Source: Bacteroidia bacterium (lineage in GTDB: Bacteria; Bacteroidota; Bacteroidia; CAILMK01; JBBDIG01). From it: DNA of 64,000 bases. Positions 19,198 through 51,168 of this stretch are shown piece after piece. The first letter of the stretch is position 1; each line of letters opens with the position of its first letter. Both the position numbers and the translations under genes were made by a program. The stretch is from NCBI GenBank assembly GCA_040880525.1, contig JBBDIG010000040.1, positions 1 to 64,000 of the forward strand, in the 5' to 3' direction. A model generated the notes under the pieces. That model saw only the letters and a list, made by a program, of their open reading frames with translations, did not search any database and had not been told where the DNA came from.

Positions 19198-20106
19198 ATG
19201 AACACCAGTGCAGAGAATAAAATACCTGATTTTTTTATAGTTGGAGCGGCTAAGAGTGGAACCACTAGCCTTTGGTATTATCTGAAGGAAAATGATAGTG
19301 TATATGTTCCCGGAGATGAATTGGTTAAAGAACCAAAGTTTTTTTCTGACTTAGCCAAGAGAGAAAAAATGACCTTTAAAAGGTATCTGAAATTATTTTC
19401 CGGGGCTTATCCTGGTCAAGTGATCGGTGAAGCCTCCACCGCCTATTTAACAGATCCCTCGGCATCCAAGAATATTTACGAATTTAATCCTGAAGCAAAA
19501 ATTATAATAATTCTGAGAAATCCTGCTGATCGTGCTTACTCCCTCTATAACTGGATGGTGCAGGAAGGATATGAGTATTTGAATACATTTGAAAAAGCGC
19601 TTGAAGCCGGAAACAGGCGGAAAAGCAAAAGAATACCTAATTTTTGGGAACCGGAATATTATTGGAATTACCGCTATTTTGCATCAGGTTTATATTCCAG
19701 GCAAGTTGAAAGATATTTGAAGCTTTTTCCTACCTTGATATTAAAATTTGAGGATTTGGTGGCAAATTCCCGCCAGGTTTACAATGAAGTTTGTGCGTTT
19801 CTGGAAGCTGAACCAACTTCTTTGAGTCCTAAAATATTGAACGATAGCAAGCTGGTCCATTCCTCCTATATTACTTTTGCTTTAAGAAAATTGAATAATA
19901 TTAAAGAAGTTGTTGATGGGCATTTATTAGGAGAGAAGGAATCTAAAAAGGAAAGGGACTCTCTTGTTAGGCTTACTCAAATAAGCGCTAAACCTCCTAA
20001 GCTTGATCCGGATCTCAGAAAAAGACTGTTAAAAAAATATGAGCCGGACATAAATAGATTGTGCAAGCTTACAGGGAAGGACTTCTATACTTGGCTGGAT
20101 GAATAG
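19198..20106 (+). CDS. Sulfotransferase family protein
   Basis: A 302-residue PAPS-dependent sulfotransferase. The 5'-phosphosulfate loop is FIVGAAKSGTTSLWYYL (about 13-29) and the 3'-phosphate-binding motif is IIIILRNPADRAYSLYNWM (about 101-119), as in heparan-sulfate and other carbohydrate sulfotransferases. It would add sulfate to a hydroxyl or amino group of a glycan or lipid acceptor in the cytoplasm. The following gene begins 53 bp later on the same strand, so the two are likely cotranscribed. Local base composition is AT-rich. Confidence 0.85.
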   Translation: MNTSAENKIPDFFIVGAAKSGTTSLWYYLKENDSVYVPGDELVKEPKFFSDLAKREKMTFKRYLKLFSGAYPGQVIGEASTAYLTDPSASKNIYEFNPEAKIIIILRNPADRAYSLYNWMVQEGYEYLNTFEKALEAGNRRKSKRIPNFWEPEYYWNYRYFASGLYSRQVERYLKLFPTLILKFEDLVANSRQVYNEVCAFLEAEPTSLSPKILNDSKLVHSSYITFALRKLNNIKEVVDGHLLGEKESKKERDSLVRLTQISAKPPKLDPDLRKRLLKKYEPDINRLCKLTGKDFYTWLDE

Positions 20107-20159
20107 GATGCGATGCAATTAAGCCAAAGGAACGGACTGGCAGAAATGCACGAGGAATT

Positions 20160-21581
20160 ATGAATGTGGAGTATAGAATACCTACAGAGGAAGTCAACTT
20201 CGGGCCCCATCGCAGCGATGAGGTAGGAGTCGTCTTTGAATGGAAGGGAGGCATTTTCAGGGCAATACGGAAAGATTTTGTGCATGAGATTCGCAGCTTA
20301 TTTGATTCAGGACTTATCAAAGAATTAAATTCCAAAGAACTTATACCCCAGACCTGTATATCCAAATATCGACTGGAAAATTTCGGCTTAGTTCTCAGTC
20401 ATGAGAAAATACCGGTTATTTCCTATCCTTATGAGTGGACCTTTGGAATGTTGCAGGATGCAGGAATCACGATATTAAAAGTAAATGAAATTGCAAGAAA
20501 TTACGGTTATCAAACTAAAGACGGACATGGCCTGAACGTGCTCTTTCACTATGGTACTCCCAAGTTTGTTGATATTGGAAGTTTTGTTCCTTTGGGAACC
20601 AACAAAATGAATTGGATGGCTTATGAAGAATTCATAAAATATTTTCTTTATCCTTTACGAATGTGGGCTGATCAGAGCACTTTTTTAGCGAGATATATGC
20701 TGTCCGGTCGGTTGAATTTAATTGCACATACTACTTTTTATTTATATAAATATCCGGTTTTAAGATATTTAAAAGCAAGTACAGTGGATAAAGTCCTTAC
20801 CAATATTTATAAATTCAGAAAGATTTCTCTGAATTCAGGCCTGCTGAGCAAAAAGGGGAAAAGAATTGATTTGTTGTCATGGTTGCTGAGAAATAATCTT
20901 TTACCCTTTCAATCTGTGAGCTTTGCGAAACTTAGCAGAACAATTAAAAGGATAAAGATCAAATCCAACGAAAAGGAAGGGAACTCAGGAACCACATTCT
21001 TAGCCAGGAATTCTGAATCTGTTTCTTCTAAATTAGAAACTATAGAAGAGGTACTGTCCAGGCTTCAAGTCAAGACAGTACTCGAACTTGGAGGCATGGA
21101 AGGTATATTGTCCTGCGCACTAAGTGATCAAAAAAGGTACGACAGAATAACTTATGCTGGTTATAATTATCACATAGTAGAAAGGCTGTATAATTCGATT
21201 AAAGTATGCAATATCACTGTTTCACCCCTATTACTGAATTTTTTAAATCCCATCAACAATATTCATCATTTATCAGCCTCTATCCGGCTCTGTTCCGATG
21301 CAGTTTTGGTTTTGGCAGAAATACATAATTTATTATTAACCGAGCGATATTCCATTCATGCTATTTTGCAAGTATTGCTGACGTATACCCGGAAGTTTTT
21401 GCTGATAGAATTTATGCCGTTGGGTCTGAAAGGTAGTGGGGGATCACAAGCGCCCTCGTGGTATTCAATAGAGTGGTTCAGGGCTAGTGTTAAAATCTAC
21501 TGTGAGGTTATCGAAGAAGTGAGCTTAGATGTAGATCGCATTCTTTTTGTCCTTAAATTTAAAGATGAAAGGAAAATCTAA
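20160..21581 (+). CDS. Kinase-like/methyltransferase fusion protein, copy 1 (degenerate methyltransferase half)
   Basis: A 473-residue protein. The N-terminal half looks like an aminoglycoside-phosphotransferase/HipA-type kinase fold: GGIFRAIRK near 30-38 (nucleotide-binding Lys/Arg), catalytic loop KDGHGLNVLF (Asp121, Asn126) and metal site FVDIGS (Asp138). The C-terminal half (about 300-470) is a class I SAM-methyltransferase fold with motif I VLELGGMEGILS, but the motif II acid found in copy 2 (SDYDE) reads AGYNY, so SAM binding may be lost. It ends with FIEFMPLG-like and PSWYSIEWF blocks as in copy 2. It converges on the flippase gene with a four-base overlap. Kinase assignment is my inference from motifs. 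Confidence 0.7.
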   Translation: MNVEYRIPTEEVNFGPHRSDEVGVVFEWKGGIFRAIRKDFVHEIRSLFDSGLIKELNSKELIPQTCISKYRLENFGLVLSHEKIPVISYPYEWTFGMLQDAGITILKVNEIARNYGYQTKDGHGLNVLFHYGTPKFVDIGSFVPLGTNKMNWMAYEEFIKYFLYPLRMWADQSTFLARYMLSGRLNLIAHTTFYLYKYPVLRYLKASTVDKVLTNIYKFRKISLNSGLLSKKGKRIDLLSWLLRNNLLPFQSVSFAKLSRTIKRIKIKSNEKEGNSGTTFLARNSESVSSKLETIEEVLSRLQVKTVLELGGMEGILSCALSDQKRYDRITYAGYNYHIVERLYNSIKVCNITVSPLLLNFLNPINNIHHLSASIRLCSDAVLVLAEIHNLLLTERYSIHAILQVLLTYTRKFLLIEFMPLGLKGSGGSQAPSWYSIEWFRASVKIYCEVIEEVSLDVDRILFVLKFKDERKI

Positions 21582-22912
21582 TGCTTATCCTTCCTGATAC
21601 TTCTTATTAGAGTCTTAGAAATTCTGACGATATTAAATGAATTTAACATCAGGATTAAATTGAATCGACAGGATTTGAATACAATATTATAATAGAATAA
21701 AACTATCGCATAGGTAGCTATCGAAGAAATTGCGGCACCACTAATACCTAATACAGGTAGCAACAGAAAATTAAAGACAATATTGAAAATACTGCCCACC
21801 AGGTAGCTCACAGTTACCAGATGTTGCAACTTTTCAACGATCAATATTTTGTGGCTGAGCAAAGCCATAAAAGTAAAGAGGCCGGCAAATGATAAAAACC
21901 TCAAGGGAGCGACTGCCGGTGCATAGGCTTCGCCAAAGGGAAGTACAATCAGATACTCAGCAAATATGAATATACTGACGTTAAAGAAAAGAGCTGTCCA
22001 GACCAAAAGATCATAGAGTTGCTGAATGCGCTGGTGATAAATTTGCTGGCCCAGCTTTTTACCATTTATAATTGCCGGAAATAAAGTTTCTGTTAGTATT
22101 ATTCCAATAAAAATATATGCTTCACTAATTTTTACGGCTGCTGAATAGTATCCGGTATCGGCCTTGCCCAATAGTTTTTTAATCATAAGCTGATCTACAC
22201 GCAGATTTAAAGTACTAAATGCTCCTGCCAAAATAAGAGGCCACCCTTCTTTCAAATAATTTAAAGCTACCTTTAAATCGAATTTCCAGTTCGAAACGGA
22301 TTTACCCTCTTTGGAGCGATAGAAAGAAAACAGTGTTGTGATTATTACTAAGGTTTCAAGGGAAAAGGTAATCGCAAAGTATTCCAGGGGCATTTCCATT
22401 ATTATCAATGCAATCTTGGTAGAACCTGATAGTATCAGCGCAATTATCTTGGCAATGGACAAAAATTTGAGCCTTACTTTAGCATAATAGTAAGGTTCAA
22501 AAACATTTGTTGATTGTAAAATAAGATTGGTGGAAACAATAAATATCAACAATTTAGAGACCGGGTCCTCGTCCAGAACCAGATGAATAAGGAACATTAC
22601 CAGGCCAAAAGCCAACACAGCATTCCCCAGGCTAAGAGCTAAAGCCGTACCCAGGTATACGTCTTCTTTTTCAGGGTCGTTGACCAGCTCCCGCACTATT
22701 ATCCTGTTGAGCCCAAAATTGGCAATCGGAAGAAATATCAGCATCCATCCAACAGCGTAGTTCAATGCTCCGTATCCCTCTGGTTTCAAATACCTCGCTA
22801 ATAATATGCCTATAAGCATATTTGAAATAAGGGTCAATATTTTTTCAAAAAACTGCCATGATATACTGTAGAAGTAATTAAGAAAATATTCAGATTTAAA
22901 TAATGCTCTCAA
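21578..22912 (-). CDS. Oligosaccharide flippase (Wzx/MATE-like)
   Basis: A 444-residue integral membrane protein with about 12-14 hydrophobic helices. The start SISWQFFEKILTLISNMLIGILLARYLKPEGYGALNY is characteristic of polysaccharide export flippases, which move lipid-linked oligosaccharide units across the inner membrane. It is the last gene of a four-gene minus-strand operon (kinase-methyltransferase 2, methyltransferase, GT4, flippase). No Wzy polymerase is visible in the window, so the glycan may be made elsewhere or be short. Confidence 0.85.
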   Translation of the reverse strand: MRALFKSEYFLNYFYSISWQFFEKILTLISNMLIGILLARYLKPEGYGALNYAVGWMLIFLPIANFGLNRIIVRELVNDPEKEDVYLGTALALSLGNAVLAFGLVMFLIHLVLDEDPVSKLLIFIVSTNLILQSTNVFEPYYYAKVRLKFLSIAKIIALILSGSTKIALIIMEMPLEYFAITFSLETLVIITTLFSFYRSKEGKSVSNWKFDLKVALNYLKEGWPLILAGAFSTLNLRVDQLMIKKLLGKADTGYYSAAVKISEAYIFIGIILTETLFPAIINGKKLGQQIYHQRIQQLYDLLVWTALFFNVSIFIFAEYLIVLPFGEAYAPAVAPLRFLSFAGLFTFMALLSHKILIVEKLQHLVTVSYLVGSIFNIVFNFLLLPVLGISGAAISSIATYAIVLFYYNIVFKSCRFNLILMLNSFNIVRISKTLIRSIRKDKH

Positions 22913-22923
22913 ATCTTCTTTTT

Positions 22924-24213
22924 TTACAAGGAGCTTTTCTGAAATGCGTCTAGTGCCTTTTGAAATAGGCTGAGATGGCTGCTAGCACATTTTTCATAAC
23001 TGAACATATTTGTTGCTTTCTCGCGCGCCTTTTCGCCCATCTGCTTCCGTGCGGAATTCTCAGTTAGGGATATGATTTTAACCGCAAGATCAATCTTATC
23101 CCGTGGTTTCACTAAGTGGCCGGTTATTCTATCCACGATCATTTCAGGAATGCCTCCCACATCAAATGCAATGATGGGTATACCGCAGGCCATTGCTTCA
23201 ATTATCGTATTGGGCAAATTGTCCTCTAAAGAAGGCAGAATAAAAATATCACAAGCATTATAGCATTTAGGGATTAATTTTTCATCATATATTTTTCCTA
23301 AAAATTTAATTTCAAGAGTGGATGCCAGTTTTAGATCTGCACTCTCAACACCAAAGATGAGCAATCTTATTTTTTTGGAAAGTTCAGGCCTGGTTCTAAT
23401 TACTTCTTCCAGGGCATCAAGCAGGTACTCTATACCTTTTCGTTTATCATCAACAGAATTTACCCCTCCAAATAGTATGTCCACTTTGTTTTCGTCAGGC
23501 TCTATATTAAAATATCGCTGGCATTCTTCTTTAGATTCTGATTTAAACAAGGACAAATCCAGGCCGTAACGCGCTAAAGAAACCGGGGTATCTGAGAACA
23601 GTCTGCTTTCTAGCGCCCTGGACTGAAGCCATTGGCTTGGAGTAATAATATGACAAGACAGATGCTCAAAATAGTTCAACTTTTTTTCAAACAGGCGATA
23701 AGACAAATCTTTTTCAATGCTGCTGTTCAAGGCAGGACAAGACTTACAATGGGCGACATACTTGTCGCAGCCCATACTGTAGTGGCATCCACCTGTAAAT
23801 AACCACATATCATGTAAGGTTATAAAGAACGGCTTTTTTAACTCAGACAGTTTTTTTATTTGGGCGACCGAAACAAAAAAATCATTTGGAAAATGAAGGT
23901 TAATAATGTCGGCTTCTTTCAAAAATGGATGATTCATTAAAGAAGGGTTCCCCGATGATAGAGAGAATCCATGGGCTCGCTCAACCTGATAGGGTTTTAA
24001 TGCTTGCTTCTGTCCTAAATGCCTGAGTAAATACGGAAACTTTTGCCAACGTTTCTTTAAAATTGGGATGATGTGAGGGTGCGGTGGTCCTTTCTGTTTC
24101 TGAACGATCATTTTAGCGGAGGCCCCGGCACTATTTAATGATGCCATCAAACGGTAACAGGCATTTGCCGCCCCTGAACCGAAATCAGTCGCATTAATTA
24201 AAGCAATCTTCAT
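22924..24213 (-). CDS. Glycosyltransferase family 4
   Basis: A 429-residue GT-B transferase. The N-terminus MKIALINATDFGSGAANACYRL and the block HDMWLFTGGCHYSMGCDKY...CKSCPAL are typical of capsule and O-antigen GT4 enzymes, with conserved cysteines of unknown role. The donor-site motif ILPSLEDNLPNTIIEAMACGIPI gives the EX7E pair (E in LED and E in IEAM). The flippase gene starts 11 bp downstream. A minus-strand TATATTTG box lies 21 bases upstream, so it may have its own promoter inside the operon. Confidence 0.85.
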   Translation of the reverse strand: MKIALINATDFGSGAANACYRLMASLNSAGASAKMIVQKQKGPPHPHIIPILKKRWQKFPYLLRHLGQKQALKPYQVERAHGFSLSSGNPSLMNHPFLKEADIINLHFPNDFFVSVAQIKKLSELKKPFFITLHDMWLFTGGCHYSMGCDKYVAHCKSCPALNSSIEKDLSYRLFEKKLNYFEHLSCHIITPSQWLQSRALESRLFSDTPVSLARYGLDLSLFKSESKEECQRYFNIEPDENKVDILFGGVNSVDDKRKGIEYLLDALEEVIRTRPELSKKIRLLIFGVESADLKLASTLEIKFLGKIYDEKLIPKCYNACDIFILPSLEDNLPNTIIEAMACGIPIIAFDVGGIPEMIVDRITGHLVKPRDKIDLAVKIISLTENSARKQMGEKAREKATNMFSYEKCASSHLSLFQKALDAFQKSSL

Positions 24214-24233
24214 TTGGTTTTCGATTTGTTCTG

Positions 24234-24241
24234 CAAATATA
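24234..24241 (-). promoter_or_regulatory. -7 box TATATTTG (minus strand) upstream of the GT4 gene
   Basis: CAAATATA on the plus strand, 21 bases before the ATG at 24213, in a 104-bp gap between operon genes. It suggests an internal promoter for the GT4-flippase pair. Confidence 0.35.
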
Positions 24242-24317
24242 AATGAATGTGGTTATGGTACTAAAAAAACTTACAGCCTGATCTTGTAAATTGAATTTAT
24301 AAACTCTCAGATCAAAT

Positions 24318-25235
24318 CTATATAACCTTCTGATATACTGCCAGGACGCTGTGTCCATGAATACCCTGAGCTACCTTAGGCATGATGCCACGAAAGATTT
24401 TGTATATGCCTGTTTTTATTAATACGTTAGAGACAACTCTTCCACTATACTTAAATAGCAGGTTATTTATGTACCAATCAAAATGGTATGGCTGCAAAGG
24501 TTCAAACTTCATATCAAGTAATTTAAGATCAAAAATACCGGACAGTGATACTAAGGAAGTAGGATCCCATAAGCTCATGTGATGTGGCGGCAAATTTAAG
24601 AAATCCCGCTGCCAGTCATGTTTTACAAAAGACTGGTTATTTGGCACTCCAATAAATAATTTTCCTCCGGGTTTAAGGCACTTTTTCATAGCTTCAATAA
24701 AATCATGTACCTCAGCTATGTGTTCCAGTACCTGAAAAGAGCACACAACATCATAGGTATCAGCATTTTTATCTCCATGTTCCTCAATTGACTGATTAAT
24801 CAGATTAAGCCCTTTTTCCTGTGCCTCCCTGACCGCTACAGTGTTTAACTCCAGCCCCAGTGTATGCACCAGGAACTTGTCATTTATTTTCCGAATAAAG
24901 GAACCATCTCCGGCACCCACTTCCAATATTTTATTTCCATCTGTAATTTCTGAGAAGACTTGTTGATGCTCCCATTTCCAGGGCTTATAGTACCACTCGA
25001 AATTTTGCAGATCAGCATATAACTGGGCATCTCCGCTGATTGTAGAAGGACGATAAAACCTGAAGCCTGTATCTGAACAACGATATAGCCCTACCTCCTG
25101 AATATTATCAAATAGGCGGTCTATAGAAATCCCGATACTTTTTTGATATTTATTAATAATAAATTCTGCGCTAATGGTTCTTTCCAGTTCAGCGGTAACT
25201 TTAAGATTTAAAGGACACAATATTTTTTCTTTCAT
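24318..25235 (-). CDS. Class I SAM-dependent methyltransferase
   Basis: About 305 residues. The start is placed at ATG 25235 because GGAGG lies ten bases upstream and the start falls right after the upstream stop; an ATG at 25250 would give a 14-base overlap. SAM-binding motif I is ILEVGAGDGSF, followed by LGLELN (motif II acid), VVCSFQVLEHI and PGGKLFIGVPN. This is the Methyltransf_23/UbiG-like arrangement common in glycan loci, where it acts on sugars. The N-terminal 80 residues are extra and contain a possible metal or substrate region (YRCSDTGFRFYRP). Confidence 0.8.
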   Translation of the reverse strand: MKEKILCPLNLKVTAELERTISAEFIINKYQKSIGISIDRLFDNIQEVGLYRCSDTGFRFYRPSTISGDAQLYADLQNFEWYYKPWKWEHQQVFSEITDGNKILEVGAGDGSFIRKINDKFLVHTLGLELNTVAVREAQEKGLNLINQSIEEHGDKNADTYDVVCSFQVLEHIAEVHDFIEAMKKCLKPGGKLFIGVPNNQSFVKHDWQRDFLNLPPHHMSLWDPTSLVSLSGIFDLKLLDMKFEPLQPYHFDWYINNLLFKYSGRVVSNVLIKTGIYKIFRGIMPKVAQGIHGHSVLAVYQKVI

Positions 25236-25236
25236 T

Positions 25237-26673
25237 TTAAACCTCCGCATTCATTCTGATCTCCCCTATAAAAAGAATTCGATTTTTTTCAAGGGTAGTC
25301 TCTTCGATTAAATAAAAATGTTGATTAAAGGTTTTTCTGAACCATTCGATATTGTACCATGAGGGAACACTTGGCGTATGGGGTACTTTCGGATTATACA
25401 GGCCCAAAGGCATAAATTCAATAAAAACGTATTTTTTTGAATAGCCTTTTAAAATATTAAAAATAAAATCTAACGGATAGCTCTGAGAAAGAACCAAATG
25501 ATGAATAACCGCTAATGCCAGAACGGCATCGGATTTAAACCTGGAAAATGTGTCAGAAAAATAGTTAAAGTTAATAGGATATACAAAATCAAAAAGGATG
25601 GGAGTAATTGATACTTCTGTGAATTTGACGTGTTGATACAACTTATCAACCGCTATTTCGTCATAGTCGCTACAAGTCACCCTGTTTATTGATGTTCTTT
25701 CGAGGATCAGACGGCTAAGTACACCCTGATTTCCGGCCAACTCCAGAACATCCGTGATGTCCATTTTTTTAAGTATATTGATAATATAATCAAATCTGGG
25801 AGTTGAGCTAAGTTTTCCATCTTTCTCGGTAAATTGATCATGATAGTAATCCCATTCTGTATTGTAAGTATTAATATTTATTTTATTAATTTTCTTTATT
25901 AACTTATCAAAATTTACTTTCTGAAAAGGTAATAAATTTCGTTTCTTCAGTTGTTGCAATAGTTTACCTTTGAATCCGCTCAATTTGGGATTAGTATATT
26001 GTTGACCACCGAGAAGCCGTATTTTATAATAACTTGAAACCAAGTGCTCAAGATATTTTTTATTGATTCTTCGTAATAGGGGATAAGTATAAAGTAAATA
26101 ATTTACGTGAGCATTTTTATTTAACGGGTATGATAAAATTCGTTGGGCAATATATGAATTTTGAGATTTCCATATATCAAGGGTATAAATAAAAAACTTA
26201 ACAAATTCCTCATAAGCTATCCACTGTTTGGATGCTGCCGGGTTCTTAGGTATAAAACTTCCAATGTCAACAAATTTGGGTGTCGCAAAATGGAAAATAA
26301 TATTATGGCCGTGAGCATCCTTTGTTTGGTATCCATATTCTTCGGCCACCTTATTTACCTTGAGAATGGTTAATGCGGCATCCTTGAGCATATTAAAAGA
26401 CCATTCATAAGGATAGTTGATCACCGGTATTTTTTCATGTTCCAGAATTAAATTAAACCCTTCCATCTGAATTTTCGTAATCCAGGTTTTAGGAATAAGG
26501 TTTTTTTCCTGAAGTTCTTCGAGCAATCCGCAGGCAAACATAGCCATTACTTCCTTTTCCTTCCTGACCCCTCTGAAAACTCTATCATTCCATATAAATA
26601 CTCTTCCGAAATCATCCGTATCATATCCTGCAAATTGAACTGAACCTGCCGGAATTTCAAGAATTTCATTCAT
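25237..26673 (-). CDS. Kinase-like/methyltransferase fusion protein, copy 2 (both halves look intact)
   Basis: A 478-residue paralogue of the product of 20160-21581. The kinase-like half has DRVFRGVRK (about 30-38), YPYEWSFNMLKDA, catalytic loop KDAHGHNIIF (Asp119, His121, Asn124) and FVDIGS (Asp136). The methyltransferase half has motif I VLELAGNQGVLSRL (309-322), motif II CSDYDE (Asp336) and AVIHHLVL, all of which fit a working SAM enzyme. WDYYHDQF (274-281), usual at the start of such methyltransferases, is present here and absent in copy 1. It leads the minus-strand glycan operon. WbdD, which caps O-antigen chains, joins the same two activities in reverse order (established); equivalence is inference. 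Confidence 0.7.
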   Translation of the reverse strand: MNEILEIPAGSVQFAGYDTDDFGRVFIWNDRVFRGVRKEKEVMAMFACGLLEELQEKNLIPKTWITKIQMEGFNLILEHEKIPVINYPYEWSFNMLKDAALTILKVNKVAEEYGYQTKDAHGHNIIFHFATPKFVDIGSFIPKNPAASKQWIAYEEFVKFFIYTLDIWKSQNSYIAQRILSYPLNKNAHVNYLLYTYPLLRRINKKYLEHLVSSYYKIRLLGGQQYTNPKLSGFKGKLLQQLKKRNLLPFQKVNFDKLIKKINKININTYNTEWDYYHDQFTEKDGKLSSTPRFDYIINILKKMDITDVLELAGNQGVLSRLILERTSINRVTCSDYDEIAVDKLYQHVKFTEVSITPILFDFVYPINFNYFSDTFSRFKSDAVLALAVIHHLVLSQSYPLDFIFNILKGYSKKYVFIEFMPLGLYNPKVPHTPSVPSWYNIEWFRKTFNQHFYLIEETTLEKNRILFIGEIRMNAEV

Positions 26674-48788: not shown

Positions 48789-49172
48789 CTAAGCTTTAAC
48801 AGCGATCAATGATATTTCCACCCTTGCATCCTTAGGTAAACGTGCTACCTGTACCGTTTCCCGTGCAGGGAAATTTTCAATAAAATAGGCTCCGTAAACC
48901 TCATTCACGATGGTGAAGTCATCCATATTCCTTAGAAAAATGCTGCATTTCACCACATCAGAAAGCGCCATTTCTGCTTCTTCCAAAATATACTTCAGGT
49001 TTTCCATTACCTGGCGGGTTTCTGCTCCCACGCTTCCCCGGAGCAACTCGCCATTTTCAGGGTCAATGGCGATCTGGCCACTGCAATAGAGCGTATTCCC
49101 TGCTTTAACTGCTTGATTGTAGGGTCCTATTGGATTCGGAGCCTTGGCTGTATGAACGATCTCTTTCATCAT
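48789..49172 (-). CDS. ridA: RidA-family enamine/imine deaminase
   Basis: A 127-residue protein of the YjgF/YER057c/UK114 family. It starts EIVHTAKAPNPIGPYNQAVKAGNTLYCSGQIA and ends VQVARLPKDARVEISLIA, with the substrate-binding Arg in the last block. It hydrolyses reactive 2-aminoacrylate and similar intermediates. Its first 68 bases overlap the 3' end of the upstream glycosyltransferase gene in another frame. Confidence 0.92.
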   Translation of the reverse strand: MMKEIVHTAKAPNPIGPYNQAVKAGNTLYCSGQIAIDPENGELLRGSVGAETRQVMENLKYILEEAEMALSDVVKCSIFLRNMDDFTIVNEVYGAYFIENFPARETVQVARLPKDARVEISLIAVKA

Positions 49173-51168
49173 AAAACAATTTGAGTTGTTGTCTTCCCAG
49201 GTGCCTCAGACCATTCCACACAATCTCTATATCCTGCTCTATCCTGTAATCTCTTGCATAGAGGAAATTAAGCCGCTCCAACATTGGAAGGCCCATTTTT
49301 CTGTAGGCGTAGCGATCTTGTGGAGTTAATATACCCCGTGGTATTTTTGGCAGCGATTCTTTTTGTTCCACCGGCACATATCCTACCCAGCTTTTCTTTG
49401 CGGAAAGCACCTGGATTATATTTCTGAAATATCCGCCTTTGTCTTTAATTCTCCAGATTAAAACCGGAGAAGCCACAAACAGAAACAGCGTAATACCAAG
49501 ATCCATTAATCTTTTTCTGAAGCGGACATCCGGCCTTGACAGCGCCAGATGAAGCTGGATAGTATAGAGATCACCCTGCGCATGCTTTGAATTGCTGCCA
49601 ATAATAAAGAGGCTCTCCTCAGGAACGATCTTATAATTTACGTTTGCTTTGCTGATTGTCGTCATCCAATGAATTATTTCGCGGGAAGACACATCCTTGG
49701 AGCAGAATATAATTTCGTTTACCTGATATACTTCGGCAATTTCATTAAGCTGCCGGATGGAACCCACAAAGTTTGTTTCGTTCTCGTACGACTCCTCGGT
49801 AGCAACAAATCCGGTTAGATTAAAATTAACACGGGTTTTTTCAAGCAAGGCCAACACGCGGTTGGCCTCCTGTGGATTTCCTACTATTGCCACTCGCTTC
49901 TCCCTGGGTTCTCCAAAATCAAGATTCCGCTCCCGCACAAGGTGCAATAACAGCCGGTTAAACATCATAATTACAGCTGCGATAGCAGCGCCCAAAATAA
50001 TGAGCGCGCGCGAATAGCGGAATGATTCCGGTAAAAATGCATAAATAACAGATATAAGAATTGTCCCTGCTACCACGCCTTTTACCAGTTTTCTTAAACT
50101 ATAGGGCCTCTGGTAGCTGCCTGAAAGCGCATTGGTTAAAATCCAGATCAGCGTATAGGCGGGAAAACTGTAATAAACCAGCTCAACCGGATATTCACCG
50201 CCATCAATATATTTTACTGTGCTTTCCCAGTAATTCTTTAAAAGCAGCAACCCGCCAAATATCATTGCTGCATCTGTTGCCGGCAGGGCCAGTGTTTTAA
50301 TGATTCGGGCAATGACAGATGCTGTTGCCCGCAGGTAAATTGCAATGTTGATAAGAAAGGAAAACATTTTCGCCTGCCCGGAAGAAAAATGCTTTTTCGC
50401 AAAAATTACCATTGCATTATAAAAGATAAAAACATAGTTCACGCTGCTTTTGCGTGTGCTTTCTCCTTTGTAATGAATGATCCGCGTTTTAGGATAATAG
50501 TAATTTTTATAACCTCCTTTTTTTATCCGGTAAGAGAGGTCTATATCCTCGCCATACATAAAAAAGGTCTCGTCCAGAAGGCCGATTTCATCCAGCACAC
50601 TTTTGCGCATCAGCATAAAGGCTCCGGCCAGTACATCCACTTCGTGTACTTCTTCGGGGCTTAAATAGCCAAGATGATAGCGGCCAAACACCCGGCTTTT
50701 TGGAAAAAGCGAAGAAAGCCCTGACATTTTATAAAAAGCCACGGAGGGCGTGGGGAAAGCGCGCTTCGATTCCGGCAGAAACCGCCCTTTTCCATCCAGC
50801 ATTTTTACGCCCAGGCCACCAGCCATTGGATAATCGTCCATGAAGCTGACACATTTTGTGAAAGTGTCTTCTTCCACCACCGTATCAGGATTGAGCAGGA
50901 GAATATATTCCGCTTTGCTCAGGGATATTGCCTGATTATTGGCGGCAGAAAAACCCGCATTTTTCTCATTTACAATGAGCTTTACTTCAGGGAATTTATG
51001 CCGCACCATTTCAGCGCTACCGTCCACCGAATTATTATCTACTACGTAAACTTCATATTCGCCCAGGCCGGCCTCTGTCATTCTTTTTCCGGCTCTCCTC
51101 ACAGAATAGAGCGCCTGTTCAAGAAAATACTTTACGTTGTAATTGACTATAATTACTGAGAGCTTCAT
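49105..51168 (-). CDS. GT2 glycosyltransferase fused to a degenerate phosphoglycosyl-transferase-like region
   Basis: A 687-residue protein. Residues 1-240 are a rhamnosyltransferase-like GT2 domain (DNNSVDGS 44-51, LNPDTVV 92-98, GEDIDLSYRIKKGG 206-219). Residues 262-410 contain four membrane helices. Residues 424-545 form a Rossmann-like domain (RVAIVGNPQEANRVL) and 546-660 follow the WbaP/WcaJ plan (RFRKRLMDLGITLFLFVASPVL, VGYVP, YRIEQDIEIVWNGLRHL). The catalytic block of those enzymes, with its KFRSM and Asp-Glu motifs, is absent. Probably an active GT2 with a relict or regulatory second half. Its start overlaps recR by four bases. Confidence 0.75.
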   Translation of the reverse strand: MKLSVIIVNYNVKYFLEQALYSVRRAGKRMTEAGLGEYEVYVVDNNSVDGSAEMVRHKFPEVKLIVNEKNAGFSAANNQAISLSKAEYILLLNPDTVVEEDTFTKCVSFMDDYPMAGGLGVKMLDGKGRFLPESKRAFPTPSVAFYKMSGLSSLFPKSRVFGRYHLGYLSPEEVHEVDVLAGAFMLMRKSVLDEIGLLDETFFMYGEDIDLSYRIKKGGYKNYYYPKTRIIHYKGESTRKSSVNYVFIFYNAMVIFAKKHFSSGQAKMFSFLINIAIYLRATASVIARIIKTLALPATDAAMIFGGLLLLKNYWESTVKYIDGGEYPVELVYYSFPAYTLIWILTNALSGSYQRPYSLRKLVKGVVAGTILISVIYAFLPESFRYSRALIILGAAIAAVIMMFNRLLLHLVRERNLDFGEPREKRVAIVGNPQEANRVLALLEKTRVNFNLTGFVATEESYENETNFVGSIRQLNEIAEVYQVNEIIFCSKDVSSREIIHWMTTISKANVNYKIVPEESLFIIGSNSKHAQGDLYTIQLHLALSRPDVRFRKRLMDLGITLFLFVASPVLIWRIKDKGGYFRNIIQVLSAKKSWVGYVPVEQKESLPKIPRGILTPQDRYAYRKMGLPMLERLNFLYARDYRIEQDIEIVWNGLRHLGRQQLKLFYDERDRSYSQGSESNRTLQSSS

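Follow-up and report, generated by a model that had tools for sequence, protein, structure and literature searches.

Two NoeA-family kinase–methyltransferase paralogues, one with a degenerate methyltransferase half, flank a glycan cassette in a Bacteroidia genome

The chain terminator WbdD of Escherichia coli O9a combines a methyltransferase, a kinase and a coiled coil and acts at the non-reducing end of the glycan (PMC3482155). Coiled-coil rulers are characteristic of chain terminators, and the carbohydrate-binding modules of Wzt recognise a terminal group, one such group being the methylphosphate made by a kinase–methyltransferase (PMC11231755). The same combination is described for ORF6-N of the Klebsiella pneumoniae O7 terminator, whose kinase domain resembles no other described so far and for which methylphosphate formation was shown in vitro (PMC11231755).

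A further kinase–methyltransferase family was described in 2022 from Lani_1194. Its members carry the kinase before the methyltransferase, and 94% of its ~2000 homologues have both domains (PMC9758233). NoeA is a homologue of Lani_1194, Flavobacteriales are among the commonest holders, and a NoeB-like gene (Lani_1195) neighbours 38% of the family, making it frequent but not universal (PMC9758233). That study also made a comparison between another kinase–methyltransferase family and WbdD. Literature on the NoeA family yielded no biochemical activity for any member.

Two paralogues around a low-G+C glycan cassette

We analysed a 64,000-nucleotide window from a Bacteroidia bacterium (contig JBBDIG010000040.1) encoding two NoeA-family proteins. 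P1 (20160..21581, + strand, 473 aa) has a kinase-like half and a degenerate methyltransferase half; P2 (25237..26673, − strand, 478 aa) has both halves intact. Pairwise protein comparison aligned them at 42% identity over 474 positions (E 1e-128). Residues 1–205 form the kinase-like half of each, supported in P1 (20160..20774, +) by invariant residues and Foldseek kinase matches and in P2 (26059..26673, −) by the AlphaFold2 model and family conservation. The methyltransferase half covers approximately residues 254–473 of P1 (20919..21578, +) and, on the basis of motif conservation and Foldseek, residues 256–478 of P2 (25240..25908, −). Both open reading frames carry the DxHxxN loop and following DIG motif reported in the initial annotation. 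P1 reads D121-G-H-G-L-N126 and D138-I-G, with D121, N126 and D138 encoded at 20520-20522, 20535-20537 and 20571-20573 (+). P2 reads D119-A-H-G-H-N124 and D136-I-G, with D119, N124 and D136 at 26317-26319, 26302-26304 and 26266-26268 (−).

The pair had been described as bracketing, on opposite strands, genes for a flippase, a GT4 enzyme and a methyltransferase beside a sulfotransferase, and Pfam agrees. Six genes occupy 19198-26673, with the sulfotransferase and P1 on the + strand and the other four on the − strand. The sulfotransferase (19198..20106, +; Sulfotransfer_1, E 1.4e-14; G+C 37%) ends 53 bases upstream of P1. A Wzx-type polysaccharide flippase (21578..22912, −; Polysacc_synt, E 1.6e-22) converges on P1, their 3′ ends sharing 4 bases, and is followed by the GT4 glycosyltransferase (22924..24213, −; Glyco_trans_1_4, E 4.7e-30). 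A separate class I methyltransferase (24318..25250, −; Methyltransf_23, E 1.5e-20) shares 14 bases with the 3′ end of P2. With these overlaps of 4 and 14 bases, the cluster is compact. G+C content is 34–38% in five of the six genes and 40% in the GT4 gene, compared with 49–50% in flanking genes and 44% across the window, and the block therefore looks like an acquired island. The flanking genes are housekeeping-like.

The window cassette contains Wzx but neither Wzm–Wzt nor an obvious polymerase or initiating transferase. Elsewhere in the window, at 49105-51168 (−), lies a gene for a 687-aa GT2 glycosyltransferase joined to a CoA_binding_3 domain, which is known from sugar-phosphate initiating transferases.

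Scans with Pfam, NCBIfam, PHROGs and PADLOC returned nothing useful for the kinase or methyltransferase half. Sinorhizobium meliloti NoeA, annotated beside nodL and noeB in L016, was the comparator for the family, in place of the Legionella member, a predicted effector. By tblastn, P2 matched noeA on pSymA over residues 15–165 at 26–28% identity (E 4e-6 to 7e-6), and a profile search extended the match over the full length (E 3.7e-20). The kinase-like N-terminal half contains the expected Arg, Asp, Asn and Asp (R34, D119, N124 and D136), where we infer R34 to be the equivalent of R38 in PMC9758233. A class I methyltransferase fold is predicted for the C-terminal half of both proteins, with the motif residues present in P2 only. 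Length, domain order, invariant residues, sequence homology and a glycan-related setting are likewise shared. Judged by sequence, P1 and P2 are members of the NoeA/Lani_1194 kinase–methyltransferase family. The proposal that the pair was previously undescribed thus fails, because this family, with the same domain order, was already published (PMC9758233).

Within a 60-row tree, P1, P2, L001, L002, L003, L004, L005, L008 and L089 fall on one side of a branch with 100/100 support. This clade carries the signatures D[AGC]HxxN and EFMPLG[LIM], whereas the remaining family mostly has D[AS][STA]xxN and EF[VPI]xxxD (for instance, DAS/DAT-xxN and FVPKED in place of DxHxxN and FMPLGL). P1 and P2 are sisters (support 100/98) with branch lengths of 0.98 and 0.46, respectively, and are best explained as a lineage-specific duplicate pair. 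One clade member, L002, comes from a Candidatus Dependentiae contig in an otherwise Bacteroidota clade and adjoins a flippase and a hexapeptide acyltransferase; its placement reflects either lateral transfer or a binning error.

The kinase-like half and its relation to WbdD

Conservation and predicted structure both bear on the proposed kinase-like first half. Across the alignment, D20, R34, D119, N124, D136 and S139 (P2 numbering) are unchanged throughout 60/60 family members, so that the catalytic Asp and Asn positions, far from varying freely, are invariant. AlphaFold2 models of P1 and P2, made from 9-row alignments built only from window sequences and collected relatives, reached pTM 0.85-0.86 and a mean pLDDT of 82. 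In the model, the first half runs through a hairpin, helices, a long helix (93–112), a strand (115–117), the catalytic loop (119–124) and two further strands (125–128 and 131–134) to the DIG motif, which is the order seen in a kinase C-lobe.

Searching with the P1 model, Foldseek retrieved the protein kinases Csk (3.4e-6), FGFR3 (4.5e-6), ROCK1, Jak1 and PAK1 in addition to methyltransferases. The kinase matches spanned E ~3e-6 to 3e-5 with low TM-scores (0.27–0.49 by target). For P2, the best 50 matches were methyltransferases only, with the Hen1 type first. The predicted kinase fold thus rests on the P1 match and on homology between P1 and P2, and on that footing the first half came out kinase-like as initially proposed. 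Comparing 43 kinase halves with Pfam gave only insignificant matches to RIO1 and DUF4135, and a kinase-half profile found no match among PDB sequences. In the NoeA/Lani_1194 family, Lys72 of PKA is seemingly replaced by Arg and no ion-pair Glu was found (PMC9758233), so catalysis may be atypical.

The likeness to WbdD drawn in the initial annotation holds in part. WbdD and the P1/P2 pair each join a protein-kinase-like fold to a class I methyltransferase in one protein within a glycan export setting, and at some sister loci the clade gene lies behind Wzm–Wzt. As regards mechanism the parallel is reasonable; membership of the WbdD group does not follow. WbdD has the methyltransferase first, whereas both of our models place the kinase first, so the reversed order holds as anatomy. 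No C-terminal coiled coil is seen in P1 or P2, whose models end in beta strands near residue 470. Searches of the PDB with P2 or the kinase-half profile returned no WbdD chain up to E 10. By description, ORF6-N also differs from P1 and P2 in placing the methyltransferase first and in having a coiled coil, a carbohydrate-binding module and C-terminal GT2 modules (PMC11231755).

Divergent fates of the two methyltransferase halves

A class I methyltransferase plan had been claimed for the second half of both proteins; the fold is predicted in both, but the motif residues survive in P2 and not in P1. P2 keeps every family motif residue but one, at position 311, where E conservatively replaces D. 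P1, which retains all kinase residues, lacks W274, Y277, N315, D336, D338 and H392 (P2 numbering), residues that are otherwise conserved. W274, Y277 and H392 are present in 59/60 rows, with P1 the sole exception, and the W..Y segment falls in residues 272-287 of P1, where AlphaFold2 pLDDT is <50. In a 31-row alignment we scored the columns that are ≥85% conserved among the remaining rows. At these columns P1 matches 12/20 in the methyltransferase half, fewer than any other row, and 25/29 in the kinase half; P2 matches 19/20 and 25/28.

Scoring private changes against six other clade members as outgroups located the divergence. At positions on which 6/6 outgroups agreed, P1 and P2 changes stood at 15:0 for the methyltransferase half (p 6e-5) and at 1:1 for the kinase half. 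Requiring agreement of 5/6 gave ratios of 19:1 and 4:3 (p 0.04 by Fisher test between the halves), and three outgroups (L001, L002 and L005) gave 22:0 and 3:3 (Fisher p 0.006). At 4/6, ratios of 27:10 and 9:5 gave no significant contrast (Fisher p 0.73). Because the contrast between halves fades at looser outgroup agreement, the excess in P1 is concentrated at strictly conserved positions.

These patterns speak to what P1 has become. We consider it very improbable that P1 is a decaying pseudogene: its branch is longer than that of P2, but its 473-aa frame is intact, its catalytic residues are all kept, and at none of the three outgroup thresholds has its kinase half diverged more quickly than the kinase half of P2. 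Nor does a frameshift account for the motif loss, since reading the region around residues 262-330 in the alternative frames does not recover W..YH.

In class I methyltransferases, the acidic pair after strand 2 holds the ribose of SAM. P1 has lost this pair along with the N of motif I and the near-universal W, Y and H, and its W..Y segment is modelled with low confidence. These losses make it distinctly unlikely that the half gained a new specificity, even though the frame is open, H391, E419, R465 and G317 are retained, and the fold as a whole is predicted with good confidence. With kinase residues kept, methyltransferase residues lost and private changes so unevenly split between the halves, P1 is most likely a kinase whose methyltransferase half is dead. 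The idea that P1 and P2 form a matched pair of capping enzymes is consequently not supported.

Among solved structures, the methyltransferase fold of P2 came closest to a bacterial Hen1 domain (3jwh; Foldseek TM 0.71). Hen1 (3jwh and 3jwi) shares this fold but is an RNA 3′-end enzyme with only 15-18% identity. The invariant HH (388-392) and E419 of P2 lie close to the expected metal-ligand positions of Hen1, and a metal-dependent methyltransferase is possible for the P2-type half. The top viral fold match to P2, BFVD entry A0A481Z196 from Mimivirus LCMiAC01, is nearly full length (E 6.5e-18, TM 0.61/0.71) and suggests a giant-virus kinase–methyltransferase of the same plan.

A NoeB-free, exporter-linked clade and its proposed role

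To compare genomic settings we counted automatically, at 7 clade loci and 40 other loci, whether a sought gene lay within two genes. A NoeB-like sulfatase-fold gene (PF00884) was found at 0/7 clade loci and 34/40 others (p 2.7e-5), and a single NoeB-like query had no match in the window genome. We treat the NoeB neighbour as a habit and not as a defining feature of the family. On two IMG/VR contigs (L059:6226-10203 and L060:914-5533), a few small genes separate a filamentous-phage morphogenesis gene of the Zot/pI-like kind from a NoeA-family gene with a NoeB-like gene behind it; the two may represent an inovirus cargo pair.

Wzm and Wzt showed the opposite pattern, occurring together at 3/7 clade loci (L003, L109 and L039) and 0/40 others (p 0.002). 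The clade gene starts 6 bases after the end of wzt in L003 and overlaps it by 19 bases in L109 and 14 bases in L039. A Wzt_C domain was detected in the adjoining Wzt at E 2e-10, 1e-10 and 1.5e-5, respectively, the last being below the Pfam cut-off. Because two of the three loci belong to Flavobacterium relatives, we count this adjacency as two independent lineages. Flippases stand in place of Wzm–Wzt in L002 and the window, bringing exporter-linked loci to five of seven, and L001 and L005 have mixed genes around the clade member. The window genome encodes a Wzm–sulfotransferase–Wzt_C operon (L124:6582-9801; G000:C26), its only Wzt_C locus. We rejected this exporter as acting in trans for P1 and P2, as no NoeA-family gene lies nearby. 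What is new is a NoeB-free, exporter-linked NoeA clade together with a naturally occurring sibling, probably kinase-only, whose methyltransferase half has degenerated.

The clade's setting recalls that of WbdD, which serves a Wzm–Wzt exporter; the gene sits directly behind Wzm–Wzt at three of seven clade loci, though not in the window cassette. By description, the Lcin_0519 family also pairs a kinase and a methyltransferase beside Wzm/Wzt-like genes; it is classed apart, its domains are arranged differently and a coiled coil is common in it (PMC9758233). It is conceivable, though quite unlikely, that P2 (and P1) are true chain terminators that, like WbdD, cap a surface polysaccharide at its non-reducing end and determine its chain length. 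The fusion of kinase and methyltransferase, the position behind Wzm–Wzt_C at three sister loci and the further Wzm–Wzt_C pair in the window genome would fit such a role. The missing coiled-coil ruler and the Wzx exporter of the window cassette argue against chain-length control, as does the lack of a NoeA-family gene near the genome's own Wzm–Wzt locus. Since sister loci carry Wzm–Wzt, some tie to export is nonetheless indicated.

The substrate of the family might instead be a small molecule, a lipid or a nucleotide-sugar, and not a glycan chain that has already been assembled. The noeA operon is tied to Nod-factor modification (nodL-noeA-noeB in L016; PMC9758233), most of the 34 loci with a NoeB-like neighbour are not glycan clusters, and the inovirus-like contigs carry the NoeA–NoeB pair. 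We regard this as unlikely, given that the P1/P2 clade lacks the NoeB neighbour and is found beside exporter or flippase genes (the window, L002, L003, L109 and L039).

We judge it moderately probable, as the best explanation, that P2 phosphorylates and methylates a glycan intermediate before export and that P1 only phosphorylates it. The neighbouring genes, from which we infer both acceptor and product, suggest that P1 and P2 are cytoplasmic enzymes working on a lipid-linked intermediate made with the adjacent GT4 enzyme. By homology, setting and WbdD chemistry, the kinase half would use ATP to phosphorylate a hydroxyl group of a sugar. The methyltransferase half of P2 would then methylate that phosphate or a nearby group, in WbdD-like fashion. 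P1 would leave the phosphate unmethylated or serve as a kinase-active partner of P2, and Wzx would afterwards flip the marked intermediate. Because P1 has kept its kinase half and lost its methyltransferase residues, it is probable that the two proteins place distinct marks on the same surface glycan. A bolder version, which we offer tentatively as a possibility, is that P1 and P2, as a complex or in sequence, write phosphate and methylphosphate on one glycan, in a NoeA clade that does for Wzm–Wzt glycans what WbdD does.

For a family of ~2000 proteins that includes a nodulation host-range protein, NoeA, a clade gene directly behind Wzm–Wzt points to a testable substrate class. The putative kinase-only sibling and the intact copy next to it form a ready-made control for separating the two functions. 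Should capping prove to be the role, methylphosphate-type marking of exported glycans would also have arisen in an unrelated enzyme of reversed domain order.
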